Shown one piece after another: positions 18,801 to 62,379 of a DNA stretch of 64,000 nt. Each line of letters opens with the position of its first letter. Within the stretch, counting starts at the first letter, position 1. The notes under the pieces were generated by a model. It did no database searches and was not told the DNA's origin. It saw only the letters and a program-made list of their open reading frames with translations. A program made the translations under genes and the position numbers. This DNA is from Prosopocoilus inquinatus. Taxonomy: Eukaryota > Arthropoda > Insecta > Coleoptera > Lucanidae. The stretch lies in the NCBI GenBank assembly GCA_036172665.1, contig CM069873.1, positions 44,176,001 to 44,240,000 of the forward strand, given 5' to 3'.

Positions 18801-21800
18801 TTCTTCCTATTATTTACATGGGAAGGAATTCCCGCCATTTTGAAATGAATCGTTACCTTAAGTACGTGAAATTTTGAGAATGTTCTAAATCTTTCAATTT
18901 CAATTTTTCGGAAAACTAAAGAAAATTAAGTTATTTTCTGGCCTTGATACTTTGCAATAAGGTGAAACTAACCCAGGTTAAAGAAATTTCATTCAAATCT
19001 ATTAGTTACCGAGTAATACCAATTTTACGATTTTGATCATTTCGAAGAACTCCATTTTCTAACTAAGTAAAATTCACTCGGTATATTTGATTGGGGTCAA
19101 ATAGGTTTTCGGACAAGCAGAAATTATTGCCGTAAAAAAGTTTTATCGAAAAAGCAGAAATAAAGATTTTTCTCTTTTGATGCCGACTTTTTGGCGATGA
19201 CTGTATGTTTCTTCTATGTTTAATCTTAGATGTAATGCAAAGTATTTATGGAAAAGAATACCCATAAATGTGAAGACTTCTACAGCAGAACTAGGACAGA
19301 TTTGGGTAGTAGCGCAACATATGTGGAAGAGAGATTTTCCTGCAGTTTATAAAGCTCTGAATGCAAGCAACTGGTCAGATACTGTGGCAGAAATAATGAA
19401 ACATGTTCAAGGTACTAATTACGTTATTCGTTCATTAATTATTAGGCCTACAAAAAATTGAAAGGGCAACTGTAGGAGATAAAAATAAAGTTTTCTTAAT
19501 TCGCTAAACCCAATAATAAGAAAGGTACAGCAGTTTAAGTCTTTTAATTTCTTCTTTAATTTACACCTATATCCTTAATTAATAAAATTTATTTCATACA
19601 TTATTATTAAATAAAAAAATAATAAAACTGTATCAGAACCACCATTCACAAAATGTGTAAGTCGACCTATTCTAGTTTATTTTTTAATTTATCAGCGGTT
19701 CTCAACAATATGATGAAAAGCCGTGACATAAAACGAAAAAATGAAATAATCGTTACTTTTACGAGAGTACATTTTTTGAAATAGTCGTTTCATGTAAAGC
19801 ACTGTTCACTATTAACTCTTAAAAACCCCAAATTGAAATTTACAATGTAAAATATTATTCCAGGTACTCTCAATTAATTTCACTTTAAAATCTTATATCT
19901 GTTTAGTTATTGATTTTTTACCGAAAGTTTATTAAGAAAAAAACTTTAAGTTCATCTCTTCTAGCTGCCCTTTCAATCTCCTCCATATGTTATGAGATAC
20001 CCAGAATACTTAGTATGTAAGATATCTGTTTTTTTTTATTTATTTACCACTAAGTACAACTTTTTCCCTAAACTTTCGCGGCATACTTCGATAGTAAATA
20101 AATAAAAAACAGATATTTTATAAATATATACTTAACGTTAATAAATTATTTAGATCAAATCTTGCTATGAAATTTTTAATGTATGTTAATTTCTTATGAT
20201 TAGTGCATATGAACGTACTAGCGTGTCAAAAAATAATAAAGAGAGACGGCTAACCGGGCAGAGAAGAAATCGCAGCTAAAGATTTGAAGGAATAACCGAA
20301 ATTTCGACAATAAAGCTAAATTGCACAGCAAGAGTTAATCTAAATAATTTAATAACGCAATTGTACCTACCTTATACGAGGGCTGCCTTTTAAGTTCTTA
20401 CAACGACCATTAGATGGTACAGTTAAGTTTTTTTTAATTATTAAAACCACGACCTAATAGATTTCATGAAACGGAGTTTCTTAACCGGCCTGGGCTATTT
20501 ATTAATTTAGTTTTCTCCGTTTTGGCGCTATTTTTATTAGTTACCCAAATTGTTTTTTTTGACACTTAAACAACATAAATGTCAAATGATGCATATTTAT
20601 GACAATGTGAGTTAATTAAAATGAAGATCAGAATTGCTAAAGGTGCTGTGTGCCAAAAATGAAAATTTTCAGGAAACGAATAAAACGGCGTGAGGACTAA
20701 AAAATTACACTTAGGTTCTTTAGCATTTCCACTCTTCAAATCAGTTCGTAATAATTAGTAAACGATTTTTATTGAAAAGAATGACGTAATTTTGTACGAA
20801 ATTACCATAGAAAGCTTTGCAAGCCAGGATCACAATAAATAAGACGTGTGATTTGAATATAATTAATAGACACTTCGCTCGTGTTTTAGCAACATTTGTC
20901 AAACAAGGTATAAATCATTTTTAAAGAATTACATTATACACTGTGATTCAAAAGGACCGCACCATCACTTAGGTGATCTTAAGACTCATTTATTTGTTTT
21001 CAAAAATTTAAACAAAATTTTGCTGGAAGCTTTCTTTAGGTAGATATAAGCTTTCAAAGATAGAAAATTGATGTTGGTTTTCTATTAACAAGAACTTTAA
21101 TGAACAGATAAAATAGCGACATCTTACGATCGCTTTTTGACCTGACATTGCAGTAGGTTTTCACTGCAATCAAAAACGATTTGCACAAAATTTTTCTATA
21201 ACTTTAATGTTTTATTAATGAAAGACGTAGATAAATGCCGGTAAAAATTTTCCTTGTTAACGAACATAATTAATATTAAGTAATAAAACAGAAAAGTCTT
21301 TGGAAATTTCAACATTATTTTAGAAGTAAGATTGGCAACTGTGCACCCAGAATTCGTTGTTGCTACGGTTACCATGGTCTGATAAGTGACAGTCACTGAC
21401 AGTACTGACTGTAAGGCTATGGTAAGTGAACGGTCGAAGAGGTCAGACCAAATCAAATGATCACTTTTTTCAATTGCTGATTGGTCGGAAGGTTTAGGCG
21501 GATCGTTGACTTGACGATTCTGTACAATTTGACCGCTCACTTAACTCGGCCTAAATAAAATTTGCCGGTGGTGTAATATTTTGAATGTCACATTTTTCGT
21601 GATGAACTGAAACGATTCATTCAACTAAACAGTGAACAGGAACTGCGTAAAAGAATTATTGATGTTGCACAAGTAATAAGAATATATGCTAAGAAATGTT
21701 CAAGGAAGCATCAGAAGACTAGGAAAATGTATTGAGGCAGTCAAAATTTCAACCGTGTATTGCAGCGGTTTAAATTTATTAAGTGAACGGTCAAATTGCA

Positions 21801-24800
21801 CAAAGTCGTTAAGTCAGCGGTCCGACTAAACCCCTTGACCAATCACCAATTGAGAAAAGTGATCACATGGTTTGGTCTGACCATTTCGACCGTTCACTTA
21901 CTACAGCCAAAGATAAAGGATCTAGGTGATACTTAATAAAATAAAAATGGAAGGAAGTTTAGTTCGCAAAAGTGGCTCCACTTGGATTTTAGACACAGCA
22001 AAGGCGGGAATTTTAAACTTTAATGTTTTAAATAAATACGTATTTCAAAAGTTATAAAGCAATAATATGCGTTTTAAATATTCACACTTTATTTCAAACT
22101 AAGAAATTGACAGATACAGAAACGAGAAGCAGATTTTCTTAAAAAATACTAATAACTCACTGCAAAAATCAGGTTCAATAATTATTCTGTGTGGGTGTAT
22201 TGCATTTCGGCTATTAGGCCAAAAAAACTTGCAAGAAGAAGAAGAAGAAGAAGAATTATTCTGTGATTTTCGGCAGAATTAGCCTTGATAATCACACTTT
22301 AAACGATTCCTTTTCTTTCATATTTGTTTTTGCTGTAACAATCACTGAACAGCGAAGTTTCTTGGATCTGGATATTTATATGCAGCTATGATGTTAATCG
22401 GAATATCTGCCGGTATCTTTGAATTGTCATTAATTTTTCATCATTGTCACCATGCAATAAAACGTATTGTTTTCTCAGTTCCTTTCCCTTTTTCTAAAAG
22501 TATCACAGTTACTGCGTACATTTTAATAGAAATAAAATATTTTTACCTGTGTCCAGGAACGTTGACAGTTTTTCGGTGCAGTAACTGGGAGTCAAATTTT
22601 GTCCATGCAGTCATAACCGATACAAATTTTATGAATTACAATAACAGCTGTAAAGCAACTTATGAAAACAAACTAAATACGAAATGCACCAAAAGCATTT
22701 ATGCAAATGCATATCAAAAACGGTGGAAATATACAGACAAGGTCAAACATAAATGTCATTAAATTTTTTCGTACTTTTAGCCAATGATCTGGTATGGGGT
22801 GGATGGAATGTAGAGTGAGAGGTATCGCGACGAACATTAGAGAGAGAGAAAACTAGCCTCGATCAGCTGGGTTGGGGGAAACATCAAAATTAGTTTGACA
22901 ATGTCAAAACGTGAAAACATTCGTTGTCTGTGCGTTTAGTCAGTTCGTTTTCAAATTGGATTTTGTGGGGTCGTTTTCTTGATTTTAAGTTATTTGAAGT
23001 GACTTATCAAGTTTTTGTTTATTATTTAATTAAAATTTTTAGAAAAATTTTGTGCAAATCGTTTTTGATTGCATTGAAAACCTCGAGCAGCCTCTGGACA
23101 GCTGTTTCAGCCCTGCTTGGGGCTTCTTCAGCAGAAACGTAGCTCGACATTTCCACTGCAAACAAAAACGACTTGTCCAATTTATTTTAAATTACGAAGT
23201 TCATTAATTTTTGACAATTCGCTATTCAACCGCTTACTCGCCATGGTAATGGTGTTTGCAAACGCATTAAGCTTAGTTGAGATGCATTTCGAATATGCAA
23301 AATATTTATTGCAATTTGTTTTTGATTGGCTAGTTTTTTTCGTATCCGGATGCATCTAAACTAAGCTTTCATTTCCCCAAACCACGTGGTATCGGCCATT
23401 TCTGATCTTTGTTACTCTTAGGGAATGCTCATATTATCTTTCTCTCTTTAATGTTAAAGCCGATGCAGTCCTATTCAAAATGACGCTAGACTCCATCTAG
23501 CCATCTAACCTTATTACATCATTGCTTTCAGCAGAGACAACCATGAGACGGATAACTCCCCTAGCGAATTTATTCGCTTTTACCAGATGTGCGCTATTTC
23601 TGTTTGTCACATATCTCTCTGGTACGCGTTGTTTTTGTCTTACGAAATAAAAGGTAGACGTAGGTGGCGCAGCTGTAACATTTTTCGTAAGGCACTCGAT
23701 CTCTGTCTAAGGACACAGGTACTGCCATCATATAGTTTTGACACTTGACAGTCGGTATTTGACCTTGAACAAGTGGGTTGTCAAAAATGACAAACCGAAT
23801 ATTTTATGAACAGATAAAATAGCGACATCTTACTATCGCTTTTAGACCTGACATTGCAGTAGGGTGGGCAAATTGAAGCGGGATTTGCTCCTAATAAGTT
23901 CCCCATGCAAGGCGGCCATGCTTGCTGTCAAAGCATAATGAAAGATTTTAGAAAAATTTTGTGCAAATCGTTTTTGATTGCAGCGAGAACCTCGAGCAGC
24001 CTCTGGACAGCTGTTTCAGCCCTGCTTGGGGCTTCTTCAGCAGAGACGTAGCTCGACATTCCCGCTGCAAACAAAAACGACTTGCCCAATTTATTCGCAT
24101 TTGCGAAGTAAGAGTGATGAACAGATAAAATAGCGACATTTTACTATCGCTTTTAGACCTGACATTGCAGTAGCAAATCCCGCTTCAATTTGTCCACCCT
24201 ACTGCAATGTCAGGTCTAAAAGCGATAGTAAGATGTCGCTATTTTATCTGTTCATCACTCTTACTTCGCAAATGCGAATAAATTGGGCAAGTCGTTTTTG
24301 TTTGCAGCGGGAATGTCGAGCTACGTCTCTGCTGAAGAAGCCCCAAGCAGGGCTGAAACAGCTGTCCAGAGGCTGCTCGAGGTTCTCGCTGCAATCAAAA
24401 ACGATTTGCACAAAATTTTTCTAAAATCTTTCATTATGCTTTGACAGCAAGCATGGCCGCCTTGCATGGGGAACTTATTAGGAGCAAATCCCGCTTCAAT
24501 TTGTCCACCCTACTGCAATGTCAGGTCTAAAAGCGATAGTAAGATGTCGCTATTTTATCTGTTCATCACTCTTACTTCGCAAATGCGAATAAATTGGGCA
24601 AGTCGTTTTTGTTTGCAGCGGGAATGTCGAGCTACGTCTCTGCTGAAGAAGCCCCAAGCAGGGCTGAAACAGCTGTCCAGAGGCTGCTCGAGGTTCTCGC
24701 TGCAATCAAAAACGATTTGCACAAAATTTTTCGAATATTTTATGTAAATCAGAACGCAAATATAACGAAAATCATTTTAATTTCTATTTTATTAACGACA

Positions 24801-27800
24801 AGAGTAAGTTTACAATGAATAACGAATAAGTTTACAATAAATCTAGGCGTTAACGGTGCGAATATGACACAATAAACCGAGAAAGTAACCAAAAAGCGTA
24901 CGTGAGTATATTAGAAGCTTTTCAGGTGAAATATTAACTTTACTTAAATCCCGAAACTATTTCAAAGCAGAAATCTCTAAACAGTTGACCATAGAAACAG
25001 AAGTTTCAGTAATTTAGCTGTTCACTTTGAAATTAAAAATTGTTGACTGATTGTAATTTTTCATCATGTTCCAAGGGTTCTATTAGGTTCTGGATAATGG
25101 GACTTGGAAAATAATAGGATTTAGCGAATTCCAAAAACATTCAGGATGAAAATGAGTTTTAGGACGCAGTCCAAAAAACCGTAGTTAATACCTGACAAAC
25201 AAGATACTTTTTAGGCAGAAGTTTCCCATTTATTATGTCATATCACCTCGTAGTTCCTTACCGTTATTATAAATTTATACTTTGTCTCAATAAAATGGAA
25301 ATTGAAACTATTTTGAGTTATTTTTCATCTTGATTTATATAAAATATTCCAATTTGTCAATTTTGACAACTGATTTTTTCAAGGTCAAATACCCACTGTC
25401 GCGTGTCAAAAATATATGATGACAGTACCTGTGTCTTTAGACAGAGATCGAGTGCCTTAATTTTTCGCGCCAACAACTGTCATTCGTCAATTTCATAATT
25501 TAAGTTCGCGTCAAAGTCTGCGCACGTTTTTAGCTACCTCGTGCTTCGTACTTTCAGTGCATTGTGAGTTTTTGTTAATTACTTCCTGTAAGTAAGTATA
25601 CAGTATTATTTCGTAGGTTAATTGCTTGTTATGAATAAGCCCGGTTACACCAATTAATTTAAATTGTGTTTAAAGTACTTAACGTGAGTGTCGATATGAA
25701 GTCGTCGTCGGTGGTCGGTCATGCGTGGTAGGGAAATCTTGACATCATATATTATATAATGCGGTCAGTCGGGCGGGGGGGGGGGGGCTGGGGTCGGAAA
25801 GGAGGGCACGACGGAACAACCTTAAGGTGCGTTTAGATTTGAGCACGAACGAGCTGAGCATACGCGCACGGCATTCGTTCGCGCTCACCAGCATTTATTT
25901 TCTGGCGCATGGGCTGATCCAGTTGTTCGCGCACACAACGGACGACAACATAGCAGCGGCTGTATAATTGTAATTCATATTTTAATAAAAAAAAAGAAAT
26001 TCGAACGAGACATCGACTTTCGTGGCAAACGCCTAATTTTTATAAGAGACGAAATAAATTACTCTACTTATTATTTAGTGTCAGAGAGTTGTCATAAGTA
26101 ATTCAAAAATTTTATTACAATAACTAAAATCGCCCCAAGAAACATTTTATCTTTTTTTGTGATTCCGCACTGTCTAAATTTTCAATATTTAATTTGTTCA
26201 CAAGCTCCTGGTAGGTCATTTTTTAAAAATAATATTTTGCGTGCTTCACATTCCATAAAATAGGCAGTTTTTCATAATCTTGCAAAGCAACGAAGCTGTT
26301 TCATAGATCCATTCCATGGCTAACTGAAAATTCAGAAACCTTTTCTGCGAGGACTGTGTCGCGTGGCTTTCAATATGCGACTTTTTTCTCGTTCAAACTA
26401 CGCATTCATGCGTGAAGCAATTAATTCCTTTGAGCACGTACCCGAGACCGACACCAAGCGGCTCGCTCTGCCAGCCATTCGCGCATGATGTGCGTGCGCG
26501 CATAGCCGTTTACACTTGAGCATTCGCGGTGGATCAGTGCGTGCGTGCTCGTCTAAATGCACAAAGGGAATCATATTTACGGCTATTCGAGCTCGCGGCT
26601 GTTCGCGCACAGGAAAACACAAGGTGAGCGTGCGCGCATAGCCGTTTACACTTGATCGTTCGCGGAGGATCAGTGCGTGCGTGGTCAAGTCTAAACGCAC
26701 CTTAAAACCGACGCGATCTCTCGCGTTCGCGAAGGCCGCGCGCGGACGCGTTCGAACACGGCGAGTTGAACACAATTTTGACCGTACGCGAACGAAGGTA
26801 AATATGTAATTAAATAAATAAACGAGACTTTGGATGTCAAAAAAATTGAGTTTTGTCGTGGCTCTTATAAACAATTGTAAAGTTAAATTTTGTAATATAT
26901 TGAGTGTTTTTTCTGTAATTATATTCATATTGTGCAATATATTATTATGGCATTGTCATATTTACATACAATGTAAAAAAAATTTTGAACTTATCGCCCT
27001 CTAGTTAACGTTTTTCGCACGAAACAGTCGACCGGAAAACACTGTTTCCTAGTCGAGTCGATCAGGAACAACGTCAATGTAACGTCAAAAATTGTAGCCT
27101 TTTGGAGCGTCGTTAAATAAATCTGTGTTGATAATAATAAATTAATCCACCGTAAATTATATTAAATGTAAGTATCTAACGTTATTTTATAACGAAAAGA
27201 TGCATATACCTATACCTACATAACATGAAAGACGCTTAAAATTAATATTTATTTTAGGTTATGATTATATTCAAGAACTATTTATTATAAATATTGTTGC
27301 TACAATTTTGGCAATTAGAAATTGAAATCCCTGCAGCAGCTTGATTGGATACAATTCTATCTACATTCACAGATGATGATGATGGTCCTGGTTGCATTAT
27401 TAATGTATCATTTGCTCTTACCGATGCTGGTGTTGGTTGCATTATATTCTCAGTAATCATTATTTTGCAGTGTAGGGAGTTTTCTACATAACTTTCAGCT
27501 ACAACTGACAATTTCCAGCCCCCATGCCTTTTAAGAGACAATAAATCTCCCCCATGATTTGCAAGAAGCGTAGCAGAGCTTCGCACACCCAAAAAATACT
27601 TTCCCTCTCCCATGTCTTTCATTTTAAAGTTTGCCATAAGTTCACGTTTAATCCTGTTTTTGAAATCATCATTATTACTGAACAAGATCAGGTCATCGAC
27701 ATAAACAACGCAAATGAAAATTATTCCGTTCTCAAATTTATAAAAAATGCAATTGTCAGTATTGAACTGCTGCAACCCAAAATTCTTGAAAGCTTCTTCC

Positions 27801-30800
27801 AACTTGAGGCTCCATATTTGACTTGCTTATTTCAGTCCATATAAAGATTTTTTTTTAAGTTTGCAGACTGTTGTCATTTTTACAGAATTTCTCCGGCTGA
27901 GTCATGTAGATGTCTTCACAAAGCTCACCGTGCAGATATGCAGTTACAACATCTAGTTCTTCTATGTCCAAATCCAGTTCAGCAGCAAGAGCTAATAAAT
28001 ATCTTATTGACGTGTATCTGACGAGAGGAGAATATGTTTCCTGATAATCGATTCCCTTTTTCTGTGAGCAACCTTTTACTACAAGGCGCGCTTTATATCT
28101 CACTACTCTTCCTGAGGAATCGCGTTTGGTTTTGAACACCCATTTACAGTCGATTGGCTTCTTGTCAACCGGAGGGTCTTTAAGTTCCCACGTTTCATTC
28201 TCCATCAATGCTCGATACTCATCTTCCATTGCTTTTAACCATAAATCTTTGTCAGGGAGTCCTAGGGCTTCTGCTAGTGATGTTGGATCTTGGTGTTCAA
28301 TAACTTGCGTTGCGAAGGTCACGTAGTCCTGGAAGTTAGGGTTTGGTCGTCTCTTTCTTTCTCCACGACGGGGTCGCTCTGGAACTGTGCATGTCGATGT
28401 ATAAGTTGATGGCTTGTAGTCAGAGTCAGGTTCACAGTCAGAATTATCAGGTGTTCTAAACGGAGATTGAGAACTTGAAGCTGATTCTGGCTCATCTTCA
28501 GTTATTACATCAAGCTGTGCTTCAGTTTCGAAGAGGAAGAATAAACTCCTATCAGCATGATCTAAATTGTTCTGTTCCAAGTATAAACTTCCTTTTTCAG
28601 ACTCAATGAACACAACATCTCTAGAAACTTTTATTTGTTGATCCTTTGGTACATAAAGTCTATAAGCTTTGTGATTTGGGGAATATCCCACCATAATGCA
28701 TTTTTCTGATATCATGTCAAGTTTCTTTCTTTTCTGTTTGAGAATATGCGCCAAAACCAAAAACGCGCAAATGACTTAAAACTGGTTTCTGGCCACTCCA
28801 AATTTCAAACGGTGTCCTAGTGACAGTTTTAGTAGGCATGCGATTCAGAAGATATACTGGTAGATCTGGTATATTTTCTGGCCCAGAACATGCATCTTAT
28901 GAAAATTCTTGTTATTAAAAGATTTTTACAAAACTCAGACAAAAACACCTTTTATAATAAACAAATAAACCAAAATTAATGGCTTCACATACACATACGA
29001 TTTTCAAATGTTTTGTTCTTGAAACAAGCCATCTTAATGAATTTGTAAAAAATCAAAATATCTTCTTTATTTATTAATTTCCGATAAAAATGATAAAGAA
29101 TAATTTTAATTCAGAATTTTATTCTCTATCGACTGGTCAAATAATATACAGCGTGTTCCATTTAAAATAAAGTGTTCTATTCTCTTTAGTTCGTTAACGC
29201 GATGTTCATTTTTTTGTTTGTATGCATCGTTGCAATCAGCGCAAAAAATACTACTAGTTTGCTAATTTAACCGGATCTGTAACTTTAATAATAAAAAAGT
29301 TAGCAATGGTGCCGAGTTATTTTTGAACAGTCTGTATACAGTGACAGCTAAAACGTTCGCACCATATGGGAAATTTTTTTATTATTGATTTGTTGTGTGG
29401 CTAAAAATACCACTTATTTAGGGTACGAAAATTACAAAAAAAATTGTAATTTGGAATTGTTGGGCAAACTAGACAAAATTTTAGTAGGATTCGATTAGTA
29501 TTTACAAAATGTGTTTCTTGATTACAAGAGATTATTCTCTTCGGCATAATACTTCAGAAAAAAAGAATATTTCCGGTTTTCTCAGTTTTGCTAAAGATCT
29601 GAAGCAGTTAATGGATATTTGTCAGTTAACTGATCCGAATGGTTAGCTTATTCATTTATGTTTATAAAAAATATTCAATAGAATAAAATTTGCTCTTGTG
29701 TTCTTACCTGTTGCATGCACAAGAAAATTTGAAACGATTTTTCACGTTTCCGTGCCAGGCCTTTTTTACTTAACCCTCCGTTAGTCGCGCATGTATCCAG
29801 CAGATACATGCTTAAGTTATTTATAAATTTTTCGGAAACAAATGCTAGAATTCCGAGATGCAGAGTATTCCTGGTTTGATATGTCTTGAATCATTTCCTG
29901 GAAGGACGATCCCAAGCAACCCTTGTGACAACGAAGAGGAAATTGAAAAACCAGAATTAGATGATTATTTTTCTGGTAAGGCACACAGTGGAAAAAAGAA
30001 CCGCCTAAAGTTTCAAAAACACGTCCTCATAATATTCTAATAAAATTACCAGGTGTAGTAGGACAGGATGCGCACTCATTTACTATTAAATTGGCGGCAG
30101 TAAGGAAACTTTATACAATTTTCATCGAAAATTGTCAAAAACATTATCATCTCGGCCAAAATGTAACAATCGATGAAATGCTGCCTGGATTTCGAGGCAG
30201 ATGTTCATTTAGGCAGTAATTCCATCGAAACCAAACAAATATGGAATAAAAATATTTTGTCTGAGCGATGCCAAATTGTACTATACCGCTAATATGGAGA
30301 TATACTGTGGGCAACAGCCCAAAGGACCGTTTCATCAGTCTAATTCATCGGATTCGATAGTAATGCGGCTTGCTAAACCTATTTTTGGATCCGGTCGAAA
30401 CATTACTGCGGATAGTTGGTTTACCAGTTTGAAGTTAGTGAAAGAGCTGGAAAAAAATAAATTGTCTTATGTGGGCACAATACGAAAAAATAAAAGAGAG
30501 CTTCTGCCAACTTTTGTGTCCCCGAAGAATCGTGCCTGTTTTAGTAGCATTTTCGGATATACTAAAGATGAGACTCTTGTTTCCTATGATCCGAAAAAGG
30601 GAAGATCCGTTGTGTTGCTTTCAAGCATGCATATTTCTTCAAAAGAAGTTTCCAATGACCCCGAGAAGAAACCGGAAATTATTTTATTTTATAACGATAC
30701 AAAATCTGGAGTAGATGTCGTTGACAAACTTTGCGCCACTTATAATGTTGGCAGATCAACGAGAAGATGGCCAATGGTGATTTTTTACCATTTTATGAAT

Positions 30801-33800
30801 TTAGCTGGCCTGAATTCTAGAATAATTTTTCTGGGAAATCAAAATGAATTCACCTCAAGAAGTGATTATTTGAAAAAGCTGGCACTAACTTTGGTAGAAG
30901 AGCAATTACGAATTAGAGCCCAAATTGCAAGTCTTCGTGGAAATAAAAACATTGCTACAAAAATATAAACGTCAAGAGGAACCCGAACCGGGAACGACGA
31001 GGGCGCCAAAAAGACGACGTTGTCAACCGTGTTATCAACACAATAAAAAAACATCACTCAGCGTTTATAGTTGTGAAAAATGTGGCATCGCTTTGTGTTT
31101 GAAACAGCACTCAAAAATAATTTGTGAAAACTGTCTTGATACCAATGAGGAAAATCAATTATTATCTGACTAACTTCTTTTATATGTACATACTATAATG
31201 CTACATAATGATAATAAACTTTATAAGTTATTTGGATAGTTTTAGTTTAAAAGTTTCTTAGATATTACATTCTGAATCTGCTTTTTTCGATTTGTCGTCT
31301 GATTTTATTAATTAAAAATAACTAACTTGCATAGGTTTGGATTTCGGTTGAAATAGACTACACCGATTTTAGTAATGATAACCAGGTAAGTAGATTTTGG
31401 TTGAACAATGTTCTATAAACTCATTTAGGCATAAATTATTACAATTTCAATTGAATAACACGTCTTATACAGCGTGTAAGCAAAAATCTAAAAGGGATAT
31501 AGCGATTCAAATTACAGCGCATAAGAAGAAGTATATTTTGAGATATTTTCATGCATTTTTTTTAAGTTATGACGTCATCAAGATTTTTTTTAAATGACAA
31601 CCTATACTTTTTATATTTTATTTCGGTGGGATTCTTTAACCTGCTTTCAACAGTATAAAATTTTGGATCGATTACATAACAAAAAATTCAAGAAAAACGG
31701 CCATAAAAGTTTAATTGTAAAGTTGAAGAAGTAAACAGAACATCTAGTTAGCAGGTTTAAAACGAAACAAAATTAAGGTGTAAATAAACAAAATTTGATT
31801 TTGACAGTCATTGAAATCACAATAAATGTTCAAACTGACGACCATGCACCAACTGACAATACCCAAGACGCTCATAAAATTCATTTATTACAGTTTGAAT
31901 AGTTTGAGGTGTTATTAACTTACACTCCTGTCGAATTCTTTCTTTAAGATCGTCTAAGTTGTTAGGTCTATTTTTATACACCTTGCTTTTTAAGTACCCC
32001 CATAGAAAAAAGTCTAATGGCGTTAGATCAGGGGATCTGGCTGGCCATTCCATTGGACCTCTTCTTCCTATCCATCTACCTGGGAACATCTCGTCCAAAT
32101 AACGTCGCACATCAACTGCGTAGTGTGGCGGAGCACCGTCGTGTTGCATCCAAATGTTATTGTTTGGTACGTTACAGTCATTTTCATTAGGAAATAATAT
32201 CGCCAATGCAGGTACTAATTCGAATTGTAAGAAGTGTAGATATTTCTCACCAGTTAAATTACCTTCAATAAAGAATGGACCTAAAATTCTGTCACCGACA
32301 ATTCCTGTCCATACGTTGAGCTTCTGGGGATGTTGAGTATGAGCTTCTTGCATCCAGTGGGGATTTTCCCTAGACCAATATCGACAATTATGTCTGTTAA
32401 CAGTTCCATGTAAAGTAAAACTTGCCTCATCAGAAAAAATTATACGCTGCGAGAACATTGGATCACGATTGCAAATTTCCAACATTTCTTCACAAAATTC
32501 TTGTCTATGATCATAGTCAGTTTCTGCTAACTCATGGACTAATTTTACTTTATACGGATGAAACTTTTGCATTTTTAAAAGTTTCAGTACCGAGGTATGG
32601 CTCAGGTTGTGCTCTAAAGCAATGTCTCGACTAGTCGAATGCGGATTATTTTCTATTTCTAGTAAAATATCAAGCTGCACATCGTCAATTAATTTTGCCT
32701 TAGGGTGGCCAGTTTTTGGAAGGTCTTTCACAATACCGTAATTTCGAAATTTATTTTCTATTCTGCTGACTGTGGATTAACTTATTTGCTGATCAGGATA
32801 TTTGTCTATAAAAAGTCGACACACCTCTTGATGAGTTCTAATTCGATCGCCATACCCAATCATCATTAGAACTTCAATTCTTTGTTTTTCAGTCAGCAAC
32901 ACCATTTTGGTAAAAGGTTTTTAATAATTAGTGTAACTCCTACTATCCACAGGGAATAAAAATACTCACTTTATTGTGATAGGTATTTAAGTTCTTGTCA
33001 ATCAAACAAATTTTGTTTGTTTTACACCTAGCTAACTAGATATTCTGTTAATTTCTTCAACTTTACAATTAAACTTTTATGGCCGTTTTTCTTGAATTTT
33101 TTGTTATGTAATCGATTCAAAATTTTAAACTGTTGAAAGTAGGTTAAAAAAACCCACCGAAATCAAAAATAAAAAATATAGGTTGTCATTTAAAAAAAAT
33201 CTTGACGTCATAACTTAAAAAAAAATTCATGAAAATATCTCAAAATATACTTCTTCTTATGCGCTGTAATTTGAATCGCTATACCCCTTTTAGATTTTTG
33301 CTTTATTACAAATATTAACGGAGTTATGGATTTTATCCGCTACTTAGTTTCCACGCTGTATACGTGTATCGGAGAGATACAGCGCGACTAATCGCGTTAC
33401 AGAAAACCGCGCGCCTAACGGAGGGTTAAGATATCGTGTTATTGTTTTTGATTTCTTCATAATACATTTCTCATAACTCTAATTTAGAATAAGCAGATCG
33501 AAAATTGCAAGAATTATTTCTACTTTTTGGTTTGGACCCGTTTAAATTCGTATTTATAAAATCAAGATTTTCGTAATAGCTATTGTACTGTTTGTACATA
33601 TCTCGATTTTTTAAGTACAAAATAATACAGAAGGGACAATGTAAAGTTAATATTGTTTTACTCTTGCAAATGCCACAACTTATTACTTTGTAATTACTTC
33701 AAATCAACCGGCTAAAACTCAGAGAGTGGTTTAATCGATACATTTCGATCCGTGCTTTCATATTCTGGAAACAGAATTTTTATGCAAGTGCTGTGAGAAA

Positions 33801-36800
33801 AGTTATGAACATTTGAAATTGGTACTGTTTCATTGGTCTGACCGTCACTTTTAATTAATTTCTAATTACTTCAAATCAACCGGCTAAAACTCAGGGGGTG
33901 GTTTAAACGAAAGATTTCGATCCGTGCTTTCATATTCTGTAAACAGAATGTTTGTGCGAATACTGCATTAAAAGATATGGACGTTCAAAGCCATATTTAA
34001 TTAATTTTCTAATTACTTTAAATCGACCGGCTAAAACTTTCTGAAGGCATTATGAAATAGAGTAATAATAAAGTATGTTTACTTTATGACTACGTGAAAA
34101 TTTTCAGTGAAAGCAATTGTTTTGGTGCGATATATGAATAATGACTTATGCTGGTTTAAATAGTCATAGTTAACTTAATATCAAATATTTTTTCAGTTTC
34201 ATCATATGAGGGGAATCTACACATTATACTCTTTGTAGTAGATTAAATATTATTGATCTGTGATCGTTATTTTAGCGGTGGCAGCGTTTTGAAATTTCAT
34301 AATTTTATTGCTAACTTCTCATCGGTCAAATTTTATCGCATTTATCTATGAAGTCAATTCCTGATGCGACTCCATTCTTGAGTTTACTTAAACAGCCTGA
34401 ATTTACGTGTGCTAAACGTTTGTGCCACAAATTAGCTGATTGGCATACCAGGGCAGAATCAGTGCGTTTCTTTTGCACATTAAGCTTATAAACATCGTTC
34501 CTTAAAACAGCTGTCCCTATCACATCCTTATCGACATTGAATATCTTGCAACCTTTTGCATCAAACACAACAGAGTTACCTTTGTTAATTAACTGAGGTA
34601 CTGATAACAAATTTGTGCATAATCCAGGCACATATAAAATGTCATTAATTGTAGCTTCGATAATGTTATTGCCCACTAGAACAGATAATTTTAGGTTACC
34701 GGTCTTATTCACTGTGATTTCTTGCCCATTTGCAGTGGTTACATCAGATGGTTCAATAACTAAGATATCTTGGAGTAAATTTAAATTACCACACATATGT
34801 GTAGATGCAGCCGAGTCCACTATCCAACAATCTACGCAAACAATTTCAGTGTTTACAGACAATGCCGTGTAATAAGCACAGTTTTTGTTGTTCCCTTTAT
34901 TTTGTGCACTATTTTGATTAATTTTTCTAGGACAATCACGAGCCAAATGTACAACGTACTGATTATAGTTATAACAGCGAGGTCCTTTTGTTTCTTTTGC
35001 TTTGCTAACTGAAGCAGAAGACGGAGGGTGGTAGCGACCTTGTTCCTGATTATATCCTGTCTTTGTTGCTCCACATTTTCTGTGACTGTACAGAGCAAGT
35101 GATTGATCAGTGTCTCCATTTCCACCGTGACTTACGTCTTGAAAAAGTTTTCTTTTTATTGAATCTCCTGTAATTTTTACACCTGAGCTTTCAATGCCCA
35201 TAATCATCGGTTTGTATTTATCTGGTAGGCCAGCCAATAAAAGAGTATCTACCCACTCTTCACTTACTTTCAACCCAATTCCAGACAGTTTATGGGCCGT
35301 TGTGACAATTTTGTTGACATAATTTATGGAATCGACCAATAAAACAATTTTTGTGCGGTCTTTAACATTTTGCTTTGGATCCTTGTCAACGTCTGTTACA
35401 CAGTCCCATAATTCCTCGTGCTGTAGATAAGTCTACTGCGAATTTCCATGTGCCGAAATTTTCTCGTTTCTTGAGCTTTTCAATCGGGGGTAACGAGGAA
35501 ATGTTAGACATTTCGGATTGGAATAACGATGACACAATCTATTCACGATACTCGCGTAACACTGGGGCCATAACCTCTTGGTAGCAGAGGGTGGTTGTAG
35601 TTTATTGACAAGTAACAGAAGTAAGTACAGAGTAGGTTAGCGTTAGCAAAACAGTTCTGACAACATTACAAACTAAATAAACGCTACAATATAAATTTCC
35701 CGCACTTATTTACTATGTTTCTGAAAATTTGTACAATGAAATAAACAATAAATCGTTATTTCCAAAGAAATGTATTAAAACAATTCCTACATGAAATGCA
35801 TACACGTAATAATGATATTGTCACGATGGGAGTTTTCGAGTTTTCATAAAAAATAATATAAAGAAATTATTAAAGCACGGGCTTGTGAAATCGAGGGCAA
35901 CAGTGTCATAACAATGCATGAGGTAACCGATATAACACGGTTCTTGTTTCAAAACAAACTTCGGCAGAATCGCGACAACTAGGACAAATGATTCAGCAAG
36001 TAGGCAATACAATACAACGCCGGGCATATTACGAATAACGCAATATGCGAATCAACAAAAATTTCGTATAAAAAGTGCGTGTAAAATTTAGATAGGCAGT
36101 CGAACCCGACTCCGGTAGGCTTAGTGCCTACTGTAAGAAGGGCAGCCGCCCTCGCAGTCGACCTAGGGACGCCTCCGAATTGGCAACATCTGCCATCTCG
36201 AAGAAGGGGAGCCACCCGGAACGTTGATCCCAAGATCATCAGCATCCTGACGCCGATCGAAGGACGCCGTCTGCCACCACCGTCCACGCCCAGCGAGAAG
36301 CTGCCGATCTCGCCCCGGTCAACCCCAGTTCCGGGAGCCGCGCCTGCCTGCCAGCTGAAGCCATCGCCGCACTCCTGCTTGCCGTCGCCACCTCATCCGG
36401 CCCCACAATGGTCGTCACTGCTGTCCCTAGATTTAGCATCTACTCCGTCGAAGCCATCTCGAGGGCCTAGATACCGGAACCGACCACCCCTTAGCGTGAC
36501 AATATATTTGCAAATATTCCAGTAAAATAAGTTCATCTTGACTAAAAAGTAGCTCGAAGACTACACACAAAAATTTTGCAGAGTTAAAGAACAGAAAAGT
36601 ATTCCGAAAGAGTGAATTTCAGAAAGAAAAAAACCTATTTATGTGAATGGACGCGAAGGACTATCGGATAATGAATAGTATATGGAAGCGGTCTTCAATC
36701 AAATTCAAAATTTTTATGTGGGTATAACGATAATAATCGATAATAATTATTCATTTTTTCAAGTTTAAGAGCATAATTATTATATTATTATAATTATTAT

Positions 36801-39800
36801 TACTATTTTTCATATTTCTCATTTTTAATTGAAAAGTTAAACTTTTGTTATATTTGTTTTTGGCTGCAATTTTTATAGGATCATTATATGTTGTTAAATC
36901 ATGGACGTTGATGAGTATTCTATTAATTCGTTTATACCAAATATTAATACGGAACTCAGTGACAAAATTAGTAAAATATTTATATTTATTATATTTTATT
37001 TAAAAATAAATTTGTACTGTCTAGAAGTGTCTGTAAAATTAATTTCACATGTTTTCGTCGACATATCTGGGGTAATGCCATGGATAGTATTAGTATTGCT
37101 ACGAATTTGGGGGTTCACAAATTATAGTCGTTAAATTTCAAAACACTTTAATTATAAGCTGTCGATTTACACAATAAACAACACAGTAGTAATGAGCTTG
37201 TCTATCAAATAACACTTTTACAAAATGTACTTTCTATTTATTCGAGGTACGAACCCTTCGCTGACTATCTTAATAACTAACTCCTTCTAACGGATCGTAC
37301 GGCTTATATAGCCGAGCCCTCTATTGCTCGAACATGCTAGAATGATCGAGTAGTTTCTGGTCATGTTTTGTGACGCAAGGTGGCGTAATTATGCTAAAAA
37401 TAGATCTGTTTGCGCGTGACGGATGTAACACTGCCCCCCTCTTAGTTCTGTTCGTCCCGAACAGAGTACGGAGCCAAACGGTCGATGTGGATCACTTTCA
37501 ACTTCCCACGGGGTAGTTTTTGTATCCTATAGACCACATCATTAATCCTCTTAATTATTTGATAGGGTCCATCCCAAGGCGCCTGTAGTTTGGGACACAG
37601 ACCACGAGTCCTTCTGGGGTTGTACAGCCACACCTGGTCCCCTTCTTGGAATCTTGTTTTATTGTCTCGTCGATCGTAGCGGGTCTTCATTTTGTCTGTC
37701 GCCAAACTGATGTTTACGTCGGACGTATTCGTGAGTGTTAATTAAATGGCGTTCGAGTTCTTGCGAGTATTCACTTAGTCCCAGTCGAGTTTCTGGTCGC
37801 CCAAATTTTAAGTCACGAGGCAGACGCATTTCTCTTCCGAATAAGACACTGTATGGAGTTCGTTTAGTAGTGTCATGCTCTGCAGAACGGTACGCCATCA
37901 GAAAAAGAGGAAGATGTTCGTCCCAGTCCCGTTGGTTCTTCGAAACAACTTTAGCCAGATGTCTCTCCAAAGTCCTATTGAAACGCTCCACCATTCCATC
38001 TGACTGTGGGTGCAAGGGAGTTGTTCGCGTTTTGAAAATGCCTAGTAACCTGGTTAATTCCTGGAAAATGTGTCCTTCAAAGTTCCTGCCTTGGTCGGAA
38101 TGGATCTCCATGGGTACTCCAAATCTGGTTATCCAATTCTCTATCAAAGCATTCACAACGGTTACTGACTCTTGATTTGGCAAAGCATAACCTTCTGGCC
38201 ATTTAGTGAAATAATCAGTCACTACCATAATGTATTTGTTTCCATGGTTGGTTTCTGGAAATGGGTCGGCTATGTCAAGGGCAATCCTCTCGAATGATGC
38301 TCCAATGTTGTAAGGGTGAAATTTTCCGCGAGTCTTTTTCGCGTGTCCGGATACTGCAGCACATGTAGTACACCTGGCACACCAATTTTCCACAACAGTT
38401 CTACATTTCGCCCAGTAGAACTTTTCTCGTACTTTCGACAATGTCTTATTGATGCCCAAATGTCCACCGGACGTACCGTCGTGAATTTCCTCCAGGACCT
38501 CAGCGACCCTTATCCTTGGAAGCACGAGTTGGTCCTTCATCTCACTCCCATTAGGTGTTTCCCATTTTCTCATTAGCAACCCACTCTTCAACTCCAGAGA
38601 ATCCCATTGTGCCTAATAGGTTTTAAACAGTGGATTCTTCCCCGATATCTCTGTCCAGGTGGGACGTTGCTGTCTTTCCTTCCATTCGATTATGTTTCTT
38701 ATTTCAGGATCTTCTCGCTGTTCCCTCTTAATGGTCTAGGTTTGCCACCAGTCTACGAGGACGCCAGTTCTTCTGATGGGAATTATCCCTTCTTTATTTT
38801 CTGCTTTTGAGCAGTGTCGACAATCCTCAGGACAAGGTCTTCTAGAGCAGGCCTCTTTTTTCCAATTCTTCACGCATCTCTTTCACTTTTAACTCGCACA
38901 GATTAATTTTTGAAATTTCCGCTTCTGACACCAATTTGTTACGAATTTGGGGATTCACAAATTTATAACCGTTAAATTTCAGAACACTTTAATTATAAGC
39001 TGTCGATTTACACAATAAACAACACAGTAGTATTGAGCTTGTCTATCAAATAACACTTTTACAAAATGTACTTTCTATTTATTCGAGGTACGAACCCTTC
39101 GCTGACTATCTTAATAACTAACTCCTTCTAACGGATCGTACGGCTTATATAGCAGAGCCCTCTATTGCCCGAACATGCTAAAATGATCGAGTAGTTTCCG
39201 GTCATGTTTTGTGACGCAAGGTGGCGTACTGATGCTAAAAATAGATCTGGTTGTTAATTTGTTAAAATTTGTTTTCGGATACAGAAGAGCTCTAGAGGAG
39301 TATACGCGTCCTTCTATTAAGAACTTTTCTTGGGTTTTAAGTGAACCACCTTCTCCAATTAAATTATCTCTACATTTTTTTACAATATCTTGATGTTTTT
39401 ATAATTTTCTTAGCTACATATCCAGCAATGTACATATGTAAGCGTGCCTTGACCTAATAAAGACATACTTCTAGTTGTGTTTTTGCCTGTAAATGCTATT
39501 ACAGATATGTCCACCTCAACAGGTGCAATAAATTCAGTTTTTCTGAGGAAGAAATCGTGTAAGTTTTCTAGAGATCCCAAATTATCGCTTTGACAATTCC
39601 TGGCGAAACGGGTGACATAAAATTATTAATGATTTAAATGAACTAACAAATGATTTACAGTTTGGGCTAGTGTTTCTGATACCGTGACTTCTAATGCATC
39701 CAAAAAACATTTCGAGTGGGTCCATTTAAACCTAACATCATATAAAAAAAGTGTTCCTCATACATTTTAATAAATGTGGTCCCTCATATAATGGAACGAC

Positions 39801-42800
39801 GTCTTCGTTATCTATAATTATTTCGAAATTTTGTTCATTTAATTTATTGTTATTGTTATTTTCTCGATACAGTTTGTTAATGGCTGCTACATTTGCGACG
39901 CCCTGATCACATATCAACGAAACTACTTTAAAACCCGTTAGTCTGGCAACTACATACTACAACTTCTTTTATTATTTTTGCTAAGGTGTTGGATGCCTCC
40001 TTCTGAAAAATAATAAACCAAAGGCTGCTTCCACTTCTTATAAATTCCTCTTGCCATAAAAAACATTATTTTATCCGCAAACATACCTGTTCCTTCATTG
40101 TCATTATTATCACAATCTTCAAATCCATCAATGGTGTCATTTCTCCTGTTGTAACCTACTCCTGGACTAAGTGACATTTCGTCAAATAAAATATTAAAAT
40201 AATTTTCTTTATTTTTCATACTTTTTATCTTTGATTTTAAACTTTCCATTCTAGCGGAATTAATACCAGTATTGAAAGGGACTTTAGCCAGTAAATTAGA
40301 AAGAGTTTTCCTTGAAGGAGCTGCAAAAATTTGTCTTCAGAGTTTGTACATTTTTGGGCTTTGTTTGTAAATTATTAAATGAAAAATTTTATCTTTTAAG
40401 CTAAATCTTCTTCCTTTACTATGCACTTTTTGTAATTTTAATTGAGAAACTATAAAATTGAACGTTGCACATAGGAGTATTTACTATGAAAACCTGGCCA
40501 TAAGTCAATTTTTAAAAGTTGCATTTATACAAAATATTTTTGTTTCTTACGGGAGCCAAATAAATGACAAATGTTAGACAATACCTGTTTTTTGTATTGG
40601 AAGGGCAAAACGTGCGACAAAAGTAGTCGAAAAGCGACAAAGTGAATTGTGTCGAATTACCAACTATGAAACATTAAAAAATAGGTAGGTATTTAAAAAT
40701 TAATATGCTTTTAAAAGCAACATTATTTTGTAGCAAATTATAAAGAAAACGTTTTTTCGTTATTAAATAAATATATCGCGGGTCTTATTGTTTCGTTATG
40801 GATGTAATTGGATAAAGTTTCCTACATGATTATAACATATAAAGATTCTACTTTACTATATGAAACAGAAACTTTGCGGATTTTTGCGGATAGCGGTTTT
40901 ATAAGCTTTATAAAATTAACGGTCTAAATAGGCTTATGCCTGATCAATCCACTTCCTTATAAATTTATTGGCCAAATAACATCCTTGGAAAAGGTCGATA
41001 CAATACAATTGTCTCCAAGGATATTATCTGGCAGATAAATTTATAAGGAGGTGGAAAGTTCGGACATTAGAATAATTTTAAATATTATATGGTGTGGTTT
41101 ACAAATCGATACTGAAAAATTGATGTCAAATTACTTTGGACGTTTGCAAAACCATATAACTATACAACGACGAGGAGGTTTGGAAGCAACAAAGTCATAG
41201 AACACTTTACACACACAAAATACTCTCGCTCCTGAGGTCTTGACAAGACTTAAGTAACCACAACAGAAAAAAAGGCCATTTTAATCGCAATGCATGAACT
41301 AATTCTTCTTGGAAACATATAAATTGCCAATAAGTCTGATTTAGAGACCATTTAAATCAGAAAATAATTTTGGCCGAATTTTCATGATAAATACTCCTAT
41401 GTGCGTTGGTTCGTTGACATGACTTTTCATAAAATTTAAGGATTTCATTAATTCATACGATCTCTTCAACTTGGTTTTTAGATTGATATTTTGTTTTTTT
41501 AAATCATTTGCCTTTTTCCGAAAAGTGGGTACTGTATTATATAGTTTTAATGATTTTTCGGACTTCTTGTTCTTGACCTTTTCCGTAAATCTGGAAAATT
41601 TTCATATTTAGTGTATTTAGTAAAATTATATGAAAAATTACCTTGACCTTCGGTCACTGAAGAACATGCTCTGTTTTTATTTATCTCAGTGGCAGATTTG
41701 TTTGTTTTTGAATCTACACAATTTGTATAAACCAAATCTTGACCTTGATCGATCACTGCAAAATCTGTTCTATTTTCATTTACCTCAAAGAAAGCTTTAT
41801 TCGTATTCGAATCTTCACAATTTTAAGTTGGGCTTTTCATAATTGAAGTAACTGTAAATAGAAAAGGAAGTTGAAGGAAGTACTAATGCCCATAGTCATA
41901 GTACTTTCCTAAAGCTTCCTCCCAATAAAGAACCCTTCAGCTGAGACATTAAATAGATATTTTTGGTAGGTACCTTTAGTGTTGGGTAAATTTTTCGTAG
42001 GTATAGCATTCTGAATTAGTGTTGATCTTCTGTGTAGTCCTACATATCTGCTACTATTGCAGTGAAAAACTCGAGCAACCTCTGTGCAGCTGTTTCAACC
42101 CTGTTTGGGGCTTCGTCAACAATGTCAGGTCAAAAAGCGATCGTAGGATGTCGCTTTCATCTATAAAAATGTTCATATTTTCAAAAAATATTTCGAAATT
42201 TCAAATTTGAAAAAGAATAAGCTTAGATCTTTCTTATTTGGGAACTTATGCATTGGACCTTTTTTTAATGGGCAATTGGAAACGCAGCAGGAGAATACCA
42301 TTTTGCCAGAAACAACTTTTATTAACTCAAGGAAAAATCACGCTGCAAACAAAGTTAACACAATAACGCAAAAAAGAAACAAAAACTAATATTTGAAAGA
42401 AACTATAATAACTATTAAGATGAAAAACAGAAGCTTTCAGAAATTACGCGAATTTAACTTTGATGAAAATTTTGACAATTTCTGACAATTTAAAAAAGGT
42501 GCCGCTCAGCAACGAACCACAGGAAATGATCTTAGCGCCTCTTGCGACTGGAGTAAAAACTAAATTTATAAACCGGAAGTGTACATTGAAGATGGCGCCC
42601 CGTGACTTAAACAGAGGCTGCTCGAGGTTTTTACTGCAATCAAAAACAATTTGCAAGGAAATTTTTAAAACTTTCATTATGCTTTGACAGCAAGCATGGG
42701 GAACTTATTAGGTAGCAAATCCGCTTCTATTTGTCTATCCTACTGCAATGTCAGGTCAAAAAGCGGTCGTAGGATATCGCTGTTTTATCTGTTCATCATT

Positions 42801-44965: not shown

Positions 44966-44984
44966 AAATTTTTGGAACAGATAA

Positions 44985-45118
44985 AACAGCCACGTCCTAC
45001 GATCGCTTTTTGACCCGACATTGTAGTAGAATAGACAAATTGAAGCGGATTTGCTACCTAATAATTCCCCCATGCAAGGCGGCCATGCTTGCTGTCAAAG
45101 CATAATGAAAGTTTAAAA
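44985..45118. repeat. Hammerhead-repeat fragment without ribozyme
   Basis: It contains CTACGATCGCTTTTTGACCC, GAAGCGGATTTGCTACC and ATGCTTGCTGTCAAAGCATA, about the half of the monomer that lies outside the ribozyme. Confidence 0.75.
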
Positions 45119-45224
45119 ATTTTTATGTTATTACTTTTGATTTTTTAATTACACAAATCCACGTCCTATTGAATTTCTCAAGACTCTGGCTGAGTTGCAC
45201 CGACATCTGAAATTAAATGCCTTA

Positions 45225-46509: not shown

Positions 46510-46795
46510 GATCGGCAATAACGATAATATCGAGACCAACAATATATTATCAACATTATCGATACCACCAGTAATGTCGATAACTCCGTCATACATCGAT
46601 ATTATCGATAATATCGATAAATATCGATAATATCGATATTGTCGATATCTGAAATGGAAATATTGTTATTCGATAATTATCGATATTATCGATAATATCG
46701 ATATTATCGATATATCGATATCTGAAATGGAAATATTGTTATTCGATAATTATCGATATTATCGATACTATCGATATATCGATAAATTTTCGCAG
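46510..46795. repeat. TATCGATA-rich simple repeat
   Basis: Many overlapping copies of TATCGATA and ATCGATAATATCGAT, including a repeated longer unit (CTGAAATGGAAATATTGTTA occurs at about 46650 and 46722). It is strongly palindromic. TATCGATA is the binding motif of the insect factors DREF and BEAF-32. Confidence 0.85.
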
Positions 46796-52238: not shown

Positions 52239-52728
52239 TAATATAATATAATATTAATATATATAATATTTATTAACTACAACTGTAAACATACAATACT
52301 CACAATACACAATAAATGAATTTTACAAATTAATTTATTTACTTTCTAACAGAACTTATAAATAAAACATACTTTATTTATTTTCTAATTCTTTTTCCAG
52401 TTTTTCAATTAGTTCTTTTAGTTTTTATCTCTTTCTATATCAGCAATTTTATGGTGATTCCACGCCAGAGTATGAATTTTGTCATCCAAAATATAACGTT
52501 TATTGTCTTTAGATGATAAGGCAATTTTATTTTTCAACTCTGTATACACCTATAAAATAGCGACATCTTACTATCGCTTTTTGACCTAACATTGCAGTAG
52601 GATAGACAAATTGAAGCGGGATTTGCTCCTAATGAGTCCCCCATGCAAGGCGGCCATGCTTGCTGTCAAAGCATAATGAAAGATTTTAGAAAAATTTTGT
52701 GCAAATCGTTTTTGATTGCAGTGAGAAC

Positions 52729-52795
52729 CTCGAGCAGCCTCTGGACAGCTGTTTCAGCCCTGCTTGGGGCTTCTTCAGCAGAAACGTAGCTCGAC
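52729..52795 (-). ncRNA. Type I hammerhead ribozyme motif
   Basis: The same structure as the other copies: GUUUCUG/CAGAGGC, CUGAAGA, AGCCC/GGGCU, GAAAC-AGCU-GUC and outer CGAGC/GCUCG. Confidence 0.78.
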
Positions 52796-52880
52796 ATTCC
52801 CACTGCAGACCAAAAACGACTTGCCCAATTTATTCGCAAATGCGATGTAAGAATGATGAACATATAAAATAGCGACATCT

Positions 52881-52940
52881 ACGTTTCTGCTGAAGAAGCC
52901 CCAAGCAGGGCTGAAACAGCTGTCCAGAGGCTGCTCGAGG
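52881..52940 (+). ncRNA. Type I hammerhead ribozyme motif, outer stem lost
   Basis: The core, stem II, stem III and inner stem I are intact, but the upstream CGAGC of the outer stem I is replaced by GACATCT at a rearrangement junction. Confidence 0.65.
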
Positions 52941-61679: not shown

Positions 61680-61738
61680 TTTAATTTTAATATTTTAGAA
61701 AAATTTTTGTGCAAATCGTTTTTGATTGCAGTGAGAAC

Positions 61739-61805
61739 CTCGAGCAGCCTCTGGACAGCTGTTTCAGCCCTGCTTGGGGCTTCTTCAGCAGAAACGTAGC
61801 TCGAC
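61739..61805 (-). ncRNA. Type I hammerhead ribozyme motif
   Basis: All core bases and helices are present; stem I has the variant GUUUCUG with two G-U pairs. Confidence 0.78.
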
Positions 61806-62118
61806 ATTCCCACTGCAGACCAAAAATGACTTGCCCAATTTATTCGCAAATGCGATGTAAGAATGATGAACATATAAAATAGCGACATCTTACTATCGCT
61901 TTTTGACCTAACATTGCAGTAGGATAGACAAATTGAAGCGGGATTTGCTCCTAATGAGTCCCCCATGCAAGGCGGCCATGCTTGCTGTCAAAGCATAATG
62001 AAAGATTTTAGAAAAATTTTTGTGCAAATCGTTTTTGATTGCAGTGAGAACCTCGAGCAGCCTCTGGACAGCTGTTTCAGCCCTGCTTGGGCAAGTCGTT
62101 TTTGGTCTGCATGGGAAT

Positions 62119-62184
62119 GTCGAGCTACGTTTCTGCTGAAGAAGCCCCAAGCAGGGCTGAAACAGCTGTCCAGAGGCTGCTCGA
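62119..62184 (+). ncRNA. Type I hammerhead ribozyme motif
   Basis: Same fold, complete, including outer CGAGC/GCUCG. It lies next to the truncated inverted copy, so a transcript could also form a long hairpin. Confidence 0.78.
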
Positions 62185-62379
62185 GGTTCTCACTGCAATC
62201 AAAAACGATTTGCACAAAAATTTTTTTAAAATCTTTCATTATGCTTTGACAGCAAGCATGGCCGCCTTGCATGGGGGACTCATTAGGAGCAAATCCCGCT
62301 TCAATTTGTCTATCCTACTGCAATGTTAAGTCAAAAAGCGATAGTAAGATGTCGCTATTTTATATGTTTAATTTTAATA

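Follow-up and report, generated by a model that had tools for sequence, protein, structure and literature searches.

Which enzyme moves the animal retrozymes, and in which form their RNA serves as its template, has been an open question since these elements were named. Both the mobilising enzyme and circular RNA as the real template are, in the accounts consulted, only proposed so far (PMC7229834; PMC11722881). Animal retrozymes as such are an already published kind of element, and Penelope-like elements are described as strong candidates for moving them, on the grounds of shared ribozymes, tandem form and co-occurrence (PMC7229834). A locus in the beetle Prosopocoilus inquinatus brings this question into focus. 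The stretch analysed (64,000 nucleotides of contig CM069873.1; hereafter the window) had been predicted, from its letters alone, to hold a retrozyme-like repeat with two complete hammerhead ribozymes in tandem. Here we describe the anatomy of this repeat in the window and in further loci of the assembly, and consider which machine and which template could have produced it.

Elements in the window and locus sample

The originally predicted span, 23809-24731, matches the borders of the main element, which is flanked by a 13-bp duplication. Further copies or fragments lie near 21.1, 23.0, 42.1-42.9, 45.0, 52.6-53.0 and 61.7-62.4 kb. In the list below, positions within the unit are numbered from N1, the first base after GUC, so that a unit runs from predicted cleavage to predicted cleavage; A and B denote the two kinds of sense 3' end described further on.

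21093-21102 and 21200-21209: target-site duplication of the minimal element, AACTTTAATG
21103-21199: minimal element, little beyond two head-to-head 3' ends (58-nt and 54-nt matches), without a ribozyme core
23097-23131 (-): type I hammerhead core, part of a distinct and older fragment at 23027-23200 (91%)
23796-23808: left target-site duplication of the main element, CGAATATTTTATG, the same 13 bases as 24732-24744
23809-24173 (-): main element, left arm of about 1.2 units, with the sense 3' end (B) at about N197-200 and facing left
24006-24040 (-): type I hammerhead core in the left arm of the main element
24172-24731 (+): main element, right arm of about 1.8 units, with the sense 3' end (A) at about N54 and facing right
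24332-24366 (+): type I hammerhead core, predicted to be cut between 24366 and 24367
24367-24677 (+): one unit in natural register, N1-N311
24643-24677 (+): type I hammerhead core, predicted to be cut between 24677 and 24678
24732-24744: right target-site duplication of the main element, CGAATATTTTATG
42056-42919: older degraded fragments (about 84-92%), comprising an inverted pair at 42056-42155, plus 42612-42919
44975-45123 (-): older degraded fragment (87%), ending at N198
52539-52550 and 52985-52996: target-site duplication of the second element, TCTGTATACACC
52551-52984: second element (52.6 kb), (-) arm ending at N192 and (+) arm ending at N63
52744-52778 (-) and 52890-52924 (+): hammerhead cores of the second element
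61680-61692 and 62367-62379: target-site duplication of the third element, TTTAATTTTAATA
61693-62366: third element (61.7 kb), (-) arm ending at N61 and (+) arm ending at N197
61754-61788 (-) and 62136-62170 (+): hammerhead cores of the third element

The two arms of the main element share 2 nt at their join. The 52.6-kb and 61.7-kb elements have a common diverged haplotype, about 5% from the main family (e.g., A22, T140), and on this basis appear to be a second subfamily with the same two ends.

The assembly (650 Mb, 173 contigs) was searched with one query unit; 40 of the 604 candidate places were scored and yielded at least 141 matches, 53 of which span the whole query unit. All 36 places outside the window that hold these 53 matches were taken, and L039, a duplicate of L038, was dropped. 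Together with four elements of the window, the 35 outside loci make up a sample of 39, biased in that all but four were chosen by near-identity to one query unit. Six further retrozyme clusters were found in 54.3 kb of flanks, none in 60 kb of chromosome ends and none in 30 kb at five arbitrary places.

The hammerhead core and the 311-nt unit

The core CTGAAGA-AGCCC-CAAGCA-GGGCT-GAAAC-AGCT-GTC is present in the window in eight exact copies, four per strand, against a mean of 0.00 matches in 100 dinucleotide shuffles. The helices are those originally claimed, i.e., stem II (AGCCC/GGGCU), a 7-bp stem I (GUCUCUG/CAGAGGC) and an outer helix, so that the complete type I core with helices I-III expected of a retrozyme is in place. 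A stricter descriptor (stem I of at least 5 bp, CUGANGA, stem II of at least 4 bp, GAAA, stem III of at least 2 bp, UH) returned the same eight places in the window and none in 200 shuffles of it. Among the fetched loci it identified 101 places in 35 distinct loci, 94 of them being one identical 49-nt string with the core intact. Hammerheads are conserved at CUGANGA, GAAA, the A-U pair 15.1/16.1 and an H at the cleavage site, all of which the retrozyme core keeps.

Two (+) cores, at 24332-24366 and 24643-24677, lie 311 bp apart in tandem, as had been noticed, and the release of a unit-length RNA from such tandem cores is predicted. With 311 nt and a GC content of 44.7% (34.2% for the window), the unit falls within the 150-450 bp and GC below 50% that characterise metazoan non-LTR retrozymes. 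The longest stop-free stretch in a tripled unit is only 96 codons, and the retrozyme can therefore be at most a dependent of a Penelope-like element: the unit lacks the open reading frame with reverse transcriptase and GIY-YIG endonuclease by which those elements are defined.

A search with covariance models, proposed originally as a check, did not recover the hammerhead. No Rfam family reached its gathering score anywhere in the window, and the 23 matches up to E = 10 in 23700-24900 include no hammerhead family; they belong to miRNA, snoRNA and sRNA families and stay below the respective gathering scores, the strongest of them lying on the large inverted repeat. The short stem III may be the reason why Rfam misses this hammerhead. 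In a single copy stem III has two pairs and the loop AGCU, and ACAGCUGU is palindromic; the best fold of a single copy is not a hammerhead. Two copies cofold into an exact double hammerhead with an 8-bp stem III (-97.7 kcal/mol, compared with 2 x -46.9 for single copies), a gain of only about 4 kcal/mol. Older diverged copies (L025, L036 and those at 42 kb) mostly retain stem II and are too few for a covariation test, so that the case for the ribozyme rests on conservation and not on covariation. The exact core had no match in IMG/VR.

The older copies (L025 167-470, L036 1460-1640, window 42056-42919; about 79-92%) often have GACGA or GATGC in the core. Their cleavage triplet has decayed or, in L025 and at 42.86 kb, reads GUA, a hint that an older subfamily may have had GUA instead of GUC.

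Head-to-head pairs with two fixed ends

The direct tandem of the original prediction is real, but the head-to-head (-)/(+) pairing, which is the most informative feature of the element, had been overlooked. The (-) arm comes first and the (+) arm last in 38 of the 39 loci. With both orientations in all but L021, a simple direct-tandem retrozyme was rejected as the usual arrangement.

The outer sense 3' ends cluster in two intervals: A, at N49-65 (about N60), and B, at N181-208 (about N198), with 32 of the 34 B ends within N192-204. One A and one B end were found in 34 of the 39 loci. L027, scored A + A, also contains an internal B end and resembles two fused elements. In L018, L021, L030 and L038 one of the ends is missing, and there is no duplication. 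At most one like-end pair among 35 loci corresponds to a binomial P of 1e-9. From the positions of the ends we infer two putative start sites of reverse transcription, and the inverted end repeats, one of them extended, by which Penelope-like elements reveal two internal starts are seen in the same 34 loci.

Flanks match over 10-15 bp in 34 of the 39 loci, the matched sequence being 83% AT, and by the rule of our script these matches abut the arms in 33 of the 34 (the exception is L031). Flanks drawn from different loci reached 10 bp in 2.25% of 2000 draws. The matches thus exceed the 4 bp taken as the lower bound for target-site duplications of metazoan non-LTR retrozymes. One A and one B end occur together with a duplication in 33 loci; two-ended L035 has, instead of a 10-bp duplication, an 8-bp match that is imperfectly longer, and L027 has a duplication.

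Arm lengths range from 0.1 to several units (most 0.1-3), and the longest uninterrupted arms measure 4.9 units (L022) and 3.2 units. We examined 41 (-)/(+) joins, counting those of secondary elements. An overlap of 2 nt or more was seen in 24 of them and one of 3 nt or more in 15 (null rates 0.17 and 0.06); four are blunt without overlap, nine are gapped, and in three an overlap of 20-23 nt falls within a complementary part of the rod described below. The joins look like products of microhomology end joining, sometimes with fold-back.

In L022 (948-3630, a locus of 8.6 units) the head-to-head join N51/N26 appears twice, and two long (-) blocks are separated by a short (+) piece, N26-N91; the repeated join may reflect local duplication or template switching.

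Single insertion and a probable single template

For 33 insertions the two flanks were joined and set against the window and loci L011-L056; eight matches crossed the join. Paralogous empty sites were identified for the 52.6-kb element (94.5%; L018 2187-1678), for L032 (92.7%) and for the main element (83.2%). Each shows the target sequence with the duplicated bases present once and no insert, so the whole inverted pair inserts at once. The candidate empty site of the 61.7-kb element (L038 and L039, 84.9%) was not counted, as it differs right at the duplication, and the candidates in L012 (73%), L036 (78%) and L045 (71%, within its own locus) were too unlike. The window has inverted arms (90%) of another repeat at 23688-23794 and 25353-25459; the main retrozyme sits just beyond the left arm, and the right-arm region is its empty relative.

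Alleles were counted by strict scoring with trimmed arm ends. At N140, one of 36 loci with two or more units is mixed (L020, whose odd unit is part of another, older element), compared with a mean of 22.8 and a minimum of 13 mixed loci in 20,000 shuffles. Among 78 non-consensus alleles at positions that at least three units, from both arms, cover, 16 are present in all units, 60 in exactly one, and two are intermediate (L022 N62, L029 N140). Sequences differ by 0.22% within an arm, by 0.49% between the arms of a locus and by 1.08% between loci. Units run across the cleavage joint N311/N1 in 123 cases, never with a base deleted at N310-N2, and a start at N1-2 is seen in just 2 of 86 segments; the cleaved linear unit is therefore not the usual template. 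A circle as template fits these observations best, a long transcript of like units that was never cut being the less likely template; local homogenisation could also account for the likeness of units within a locus.

Predicted fold of the circular unit

The circular unit folds as a rod pairing N2-47 with N228-280 (-117.7 kcal/mol; z -8.3 against 100 shuffles), which was found in 21 of 21 distinct full units. At the inner mouth of the rod N48-67 and N196-209 are unpaired, on both sides. When all 311 circular 14-nt stretches of the window's unit were scored, those with a mean unpaired probability of at least 0.75 started only at N47-56 and N194-197, the best stretch elsewhere reaching 0.64; another unit, folded without wrap-round, gave the same two unpaired regions. 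In these models the unpaired regions coincide with the A and B ends. The agreement is strong and falls short of independent proof, because both regions are A/T-rich, which favours low pairing as well as matching to AT-rich targets.

Comparison with known systems

Like the metazoan non-LTR retrozymes described by Cervera and de la Pena (2020, PMC7229834), the beetle repeat has a type I hammerhead, a unit of 150-450 bp, low GC content and tandem units. It shares with them duplications longer than 4 bp, the lack of coding capacity and a highly self-paired predicted circle (PMC7229834). Its short stem III resembles HHR_Amex1 of the axolotl, in which a stem of one pair with a palindromic tetraloop is reported to be weak alone and better as a dimer (PMC7229834). 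The retrozyme-like character originally claimed is thus supported, the repeat being dispersed and mobile, with target-site duplications, empty sites, a 311-nt unit and a type I hammerhead. An LTR-type arrangement was not observed. What sets the beetle repeat apart from metazoan non-LTR retrozymes is the head-to-head pairing of its copies, with 3' ends at two fixed sites. Neither 'inverted' nor 'head-to-head' occurs in the main text of PMC7229834, and we found no report of head-to-head retrozymes with two fixed ends in the main texts and passages of openly available papers that were searched.

Penelope-like elements provide further parallels. The PAc protein is described as cutting and extending both strands at AT-rich targets, with internal starts at two adjacent RNA sites, and is predicted to form a dimer (PMC11167929); rotifer Penelope copies are described as having inverted pseudo-LTRs with a tail on one of them (PMC3846280). 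With PAc/Poseidon the retrozyme shares a hammerhead in the repeat (PAc), AT-rich targets and, in the reading proposed here, two internal starts of reverse transcription and the use of both target strands (PMC11167929), and with Penelope elements the inverted terminal repeats with an extension on only one (PMC3846280). Unlike Penelope-like elements, the retrozyme encodes no reverse transcriptase or endonuclease. Its putative start sites are about 138 nt apart, compared with 30-40 nt in the Penelope tails described, and its duplications measure 10-15 bp versus the 8-10 bp given for rotifer Penelope (PMC3846280). Moreover, no difference in start site between the strands is reported for PAc (PMC11167929), whereas a retrozyme insertion has one of each. 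Set beside these elements, the retrozyme appears to carry the Penelope signature in a sharper form, with one end of each kind in 34 of the 39 loci. The link to Penelope-like elements, a mere resemblance in the original prediction, is supported by the two-site inverted anatomy.

The pDo500 satellite of Dolichopoda cave crickets is likewise an insect repeat family with a hammerhead (PMC2837043). Unlike the retrozyme, it is described as satellite DNA (PMC2837043).

Alternative explanations

Four other accounts of the repeat were weighed against these data. In twin priming, one end is fixed at the 3' tail of the RNA and the second start is variable. A LINE-type enzyme that copied a linear multimer or a circle by target-primed reverse transcription and used twin priming would produce an inversion, and would also be consistent with the 10-15 bp duplications and the microhomology at the inverted join; the 15-bp duplication of Nematostella repeats has been likened to those of LINEs (PMC4918200). 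This is nevertheless unlikely, since both ends are fixed in the beetle repeat, one of each kind in 34 of the 39 loci, and no poly(A) or simple 3' tail was seen among the element ends examined. An alternative of low probability concerns the template only and can be compatible with a Penelope-like enzyme: in place of a circle, a linear multimeric transcript, or an antisense transcript priming itself by fold-back, would be copied. A transcript of one locus would likewise yield like units, the three joins in the 20-23 nt complementary rod stretch fit fold-back, and self-priming has been argued for the inverted pseudo-LTRs of rotifer Penelope elements (PMC3846280). A linear multimer is difficult to reconcile with arms of mostly 0.1-3 units and, at the longest, 4.9 (L022) and 3.2 units; 38 of the 41 joins are without a long fold-back, and self-priming leaves the two fixed outer ends unexplained.

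The hammerhead might also be an inactive relic in a repeat that moves as an ordinary small retroposon, in keeping with the missing Rfam match and the different fold of the single copy. We hold this to be quite improbable, given that 94 of the 101 descriptor places are the identical 49-nt string with its core intact and that the stem III palindrome is the arrangement reported to cleave better as a dimer in the axolotl (PMC7229834). Least credible of all would be a palindromic DNA transposon or MITE with a hammerhead-like sequence by chance. Inverted symmetry and target-site duplications are features of such elements, but the variable arm lengths (0.1 to several units) and the 10-15 bp duplications speak against it, and the outer ends are not terminal inverted repeats; a DNA transposon of that type was rejected on account of the unlike ends of the repeat, at about N60 and N198, in 34 of the 39 loci.

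Proposed mechanism of transposition

The repeat is probably a non-autonomous retrozyme, whose self-cleaving transcripts would become circles and be reverse transcribed from both sites of one circle. The core, the inverted pairs, ends A and B, the 10-15 bp duplications, the empty sites and the identity of alleles between arms are seen in the sequence; cleavage, circles and enzyme are inferences. Tandem transcripts would pair as double hammerheads via the palindrome ACAGCUGU and be cut after GUC, and the 311-nt RNA would be closed by a host ligase. A Penelope-like reverse transcriptase-endonuclease dimer, bound to the rod-shaped circle, would nick the two strands of the target at points 10-15 bp from each other; the 3' ends so released would prime one at each of the two single-stranded regions at the mouth of the rod. 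The cDNA may circle the template more than once, which would generate tandem units; the cDNA ends would then unite by microhomology of a few nucleotides or by rod complementarity, and fill-in would complete the inverted pair. By analogy with the systems above, a Penelope-like machine acting on one circle is the most likely agent. Points that tell against this reading as a whole are the missing Rfam match, the wide spacing of the putative start sites, their one-of-each use per insertion, and the blunt and gapped joins. The more specific proposal, that the rod of the circle offers one single-stranded window per subunit of the dimer and that both cDNAs roll round the same circle until they meet head to head, has in our estimate about an even chance of being correct.

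If this mechanism is true, it would reveal which machine moves animal retrozymes and in what form their template is used. The anatomy of the beetle retrozyme, with its fixed ends, a pair of unlike ends per insertion and a template sequence common to both arms, would record the likely answer, and the family supplies exact predicted start sites, the exact RNA and exact predictions for a purified enzyme.

Genomic surroundings

Scanning of 23 open reading frames of the window identified Copia-type and integrase fragments and no match to GIY-YIG or RVT_1. The region 26398-38591 is rich in transposable elements on both strands, with pieces of a Copia-type retrotransposon, an integrase, DDE_Tnp_1_7 (piggyBac-like) and a Tc-type transposase. 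Beside the 52.6-kb retrozyme, 53184-54763 (-) gave weak matches to DNA polymerase B, below the Pfam cut-off, and is perhaps a decayed Maverick/Polinton-like element. A tandem array of the ATCGATATT type, with a 73-bp higher-order period, occupies 46575-46785.

Among the chromosome ends fetched (L047-L056), nine of ten carry the telomere repeat (TTGGG)n/(CCCAA)n, which is absent at the right end of C1. The TTGGG motif has been reported in some beetles, a lacewing, a damselfly and a bee (PMC8233369, PMC12564400), and thus by itself points to a probable insect host. Subtelomeric arrays, with a unit like GGCTCGTGTCTT, adjoin the telomere repeats.
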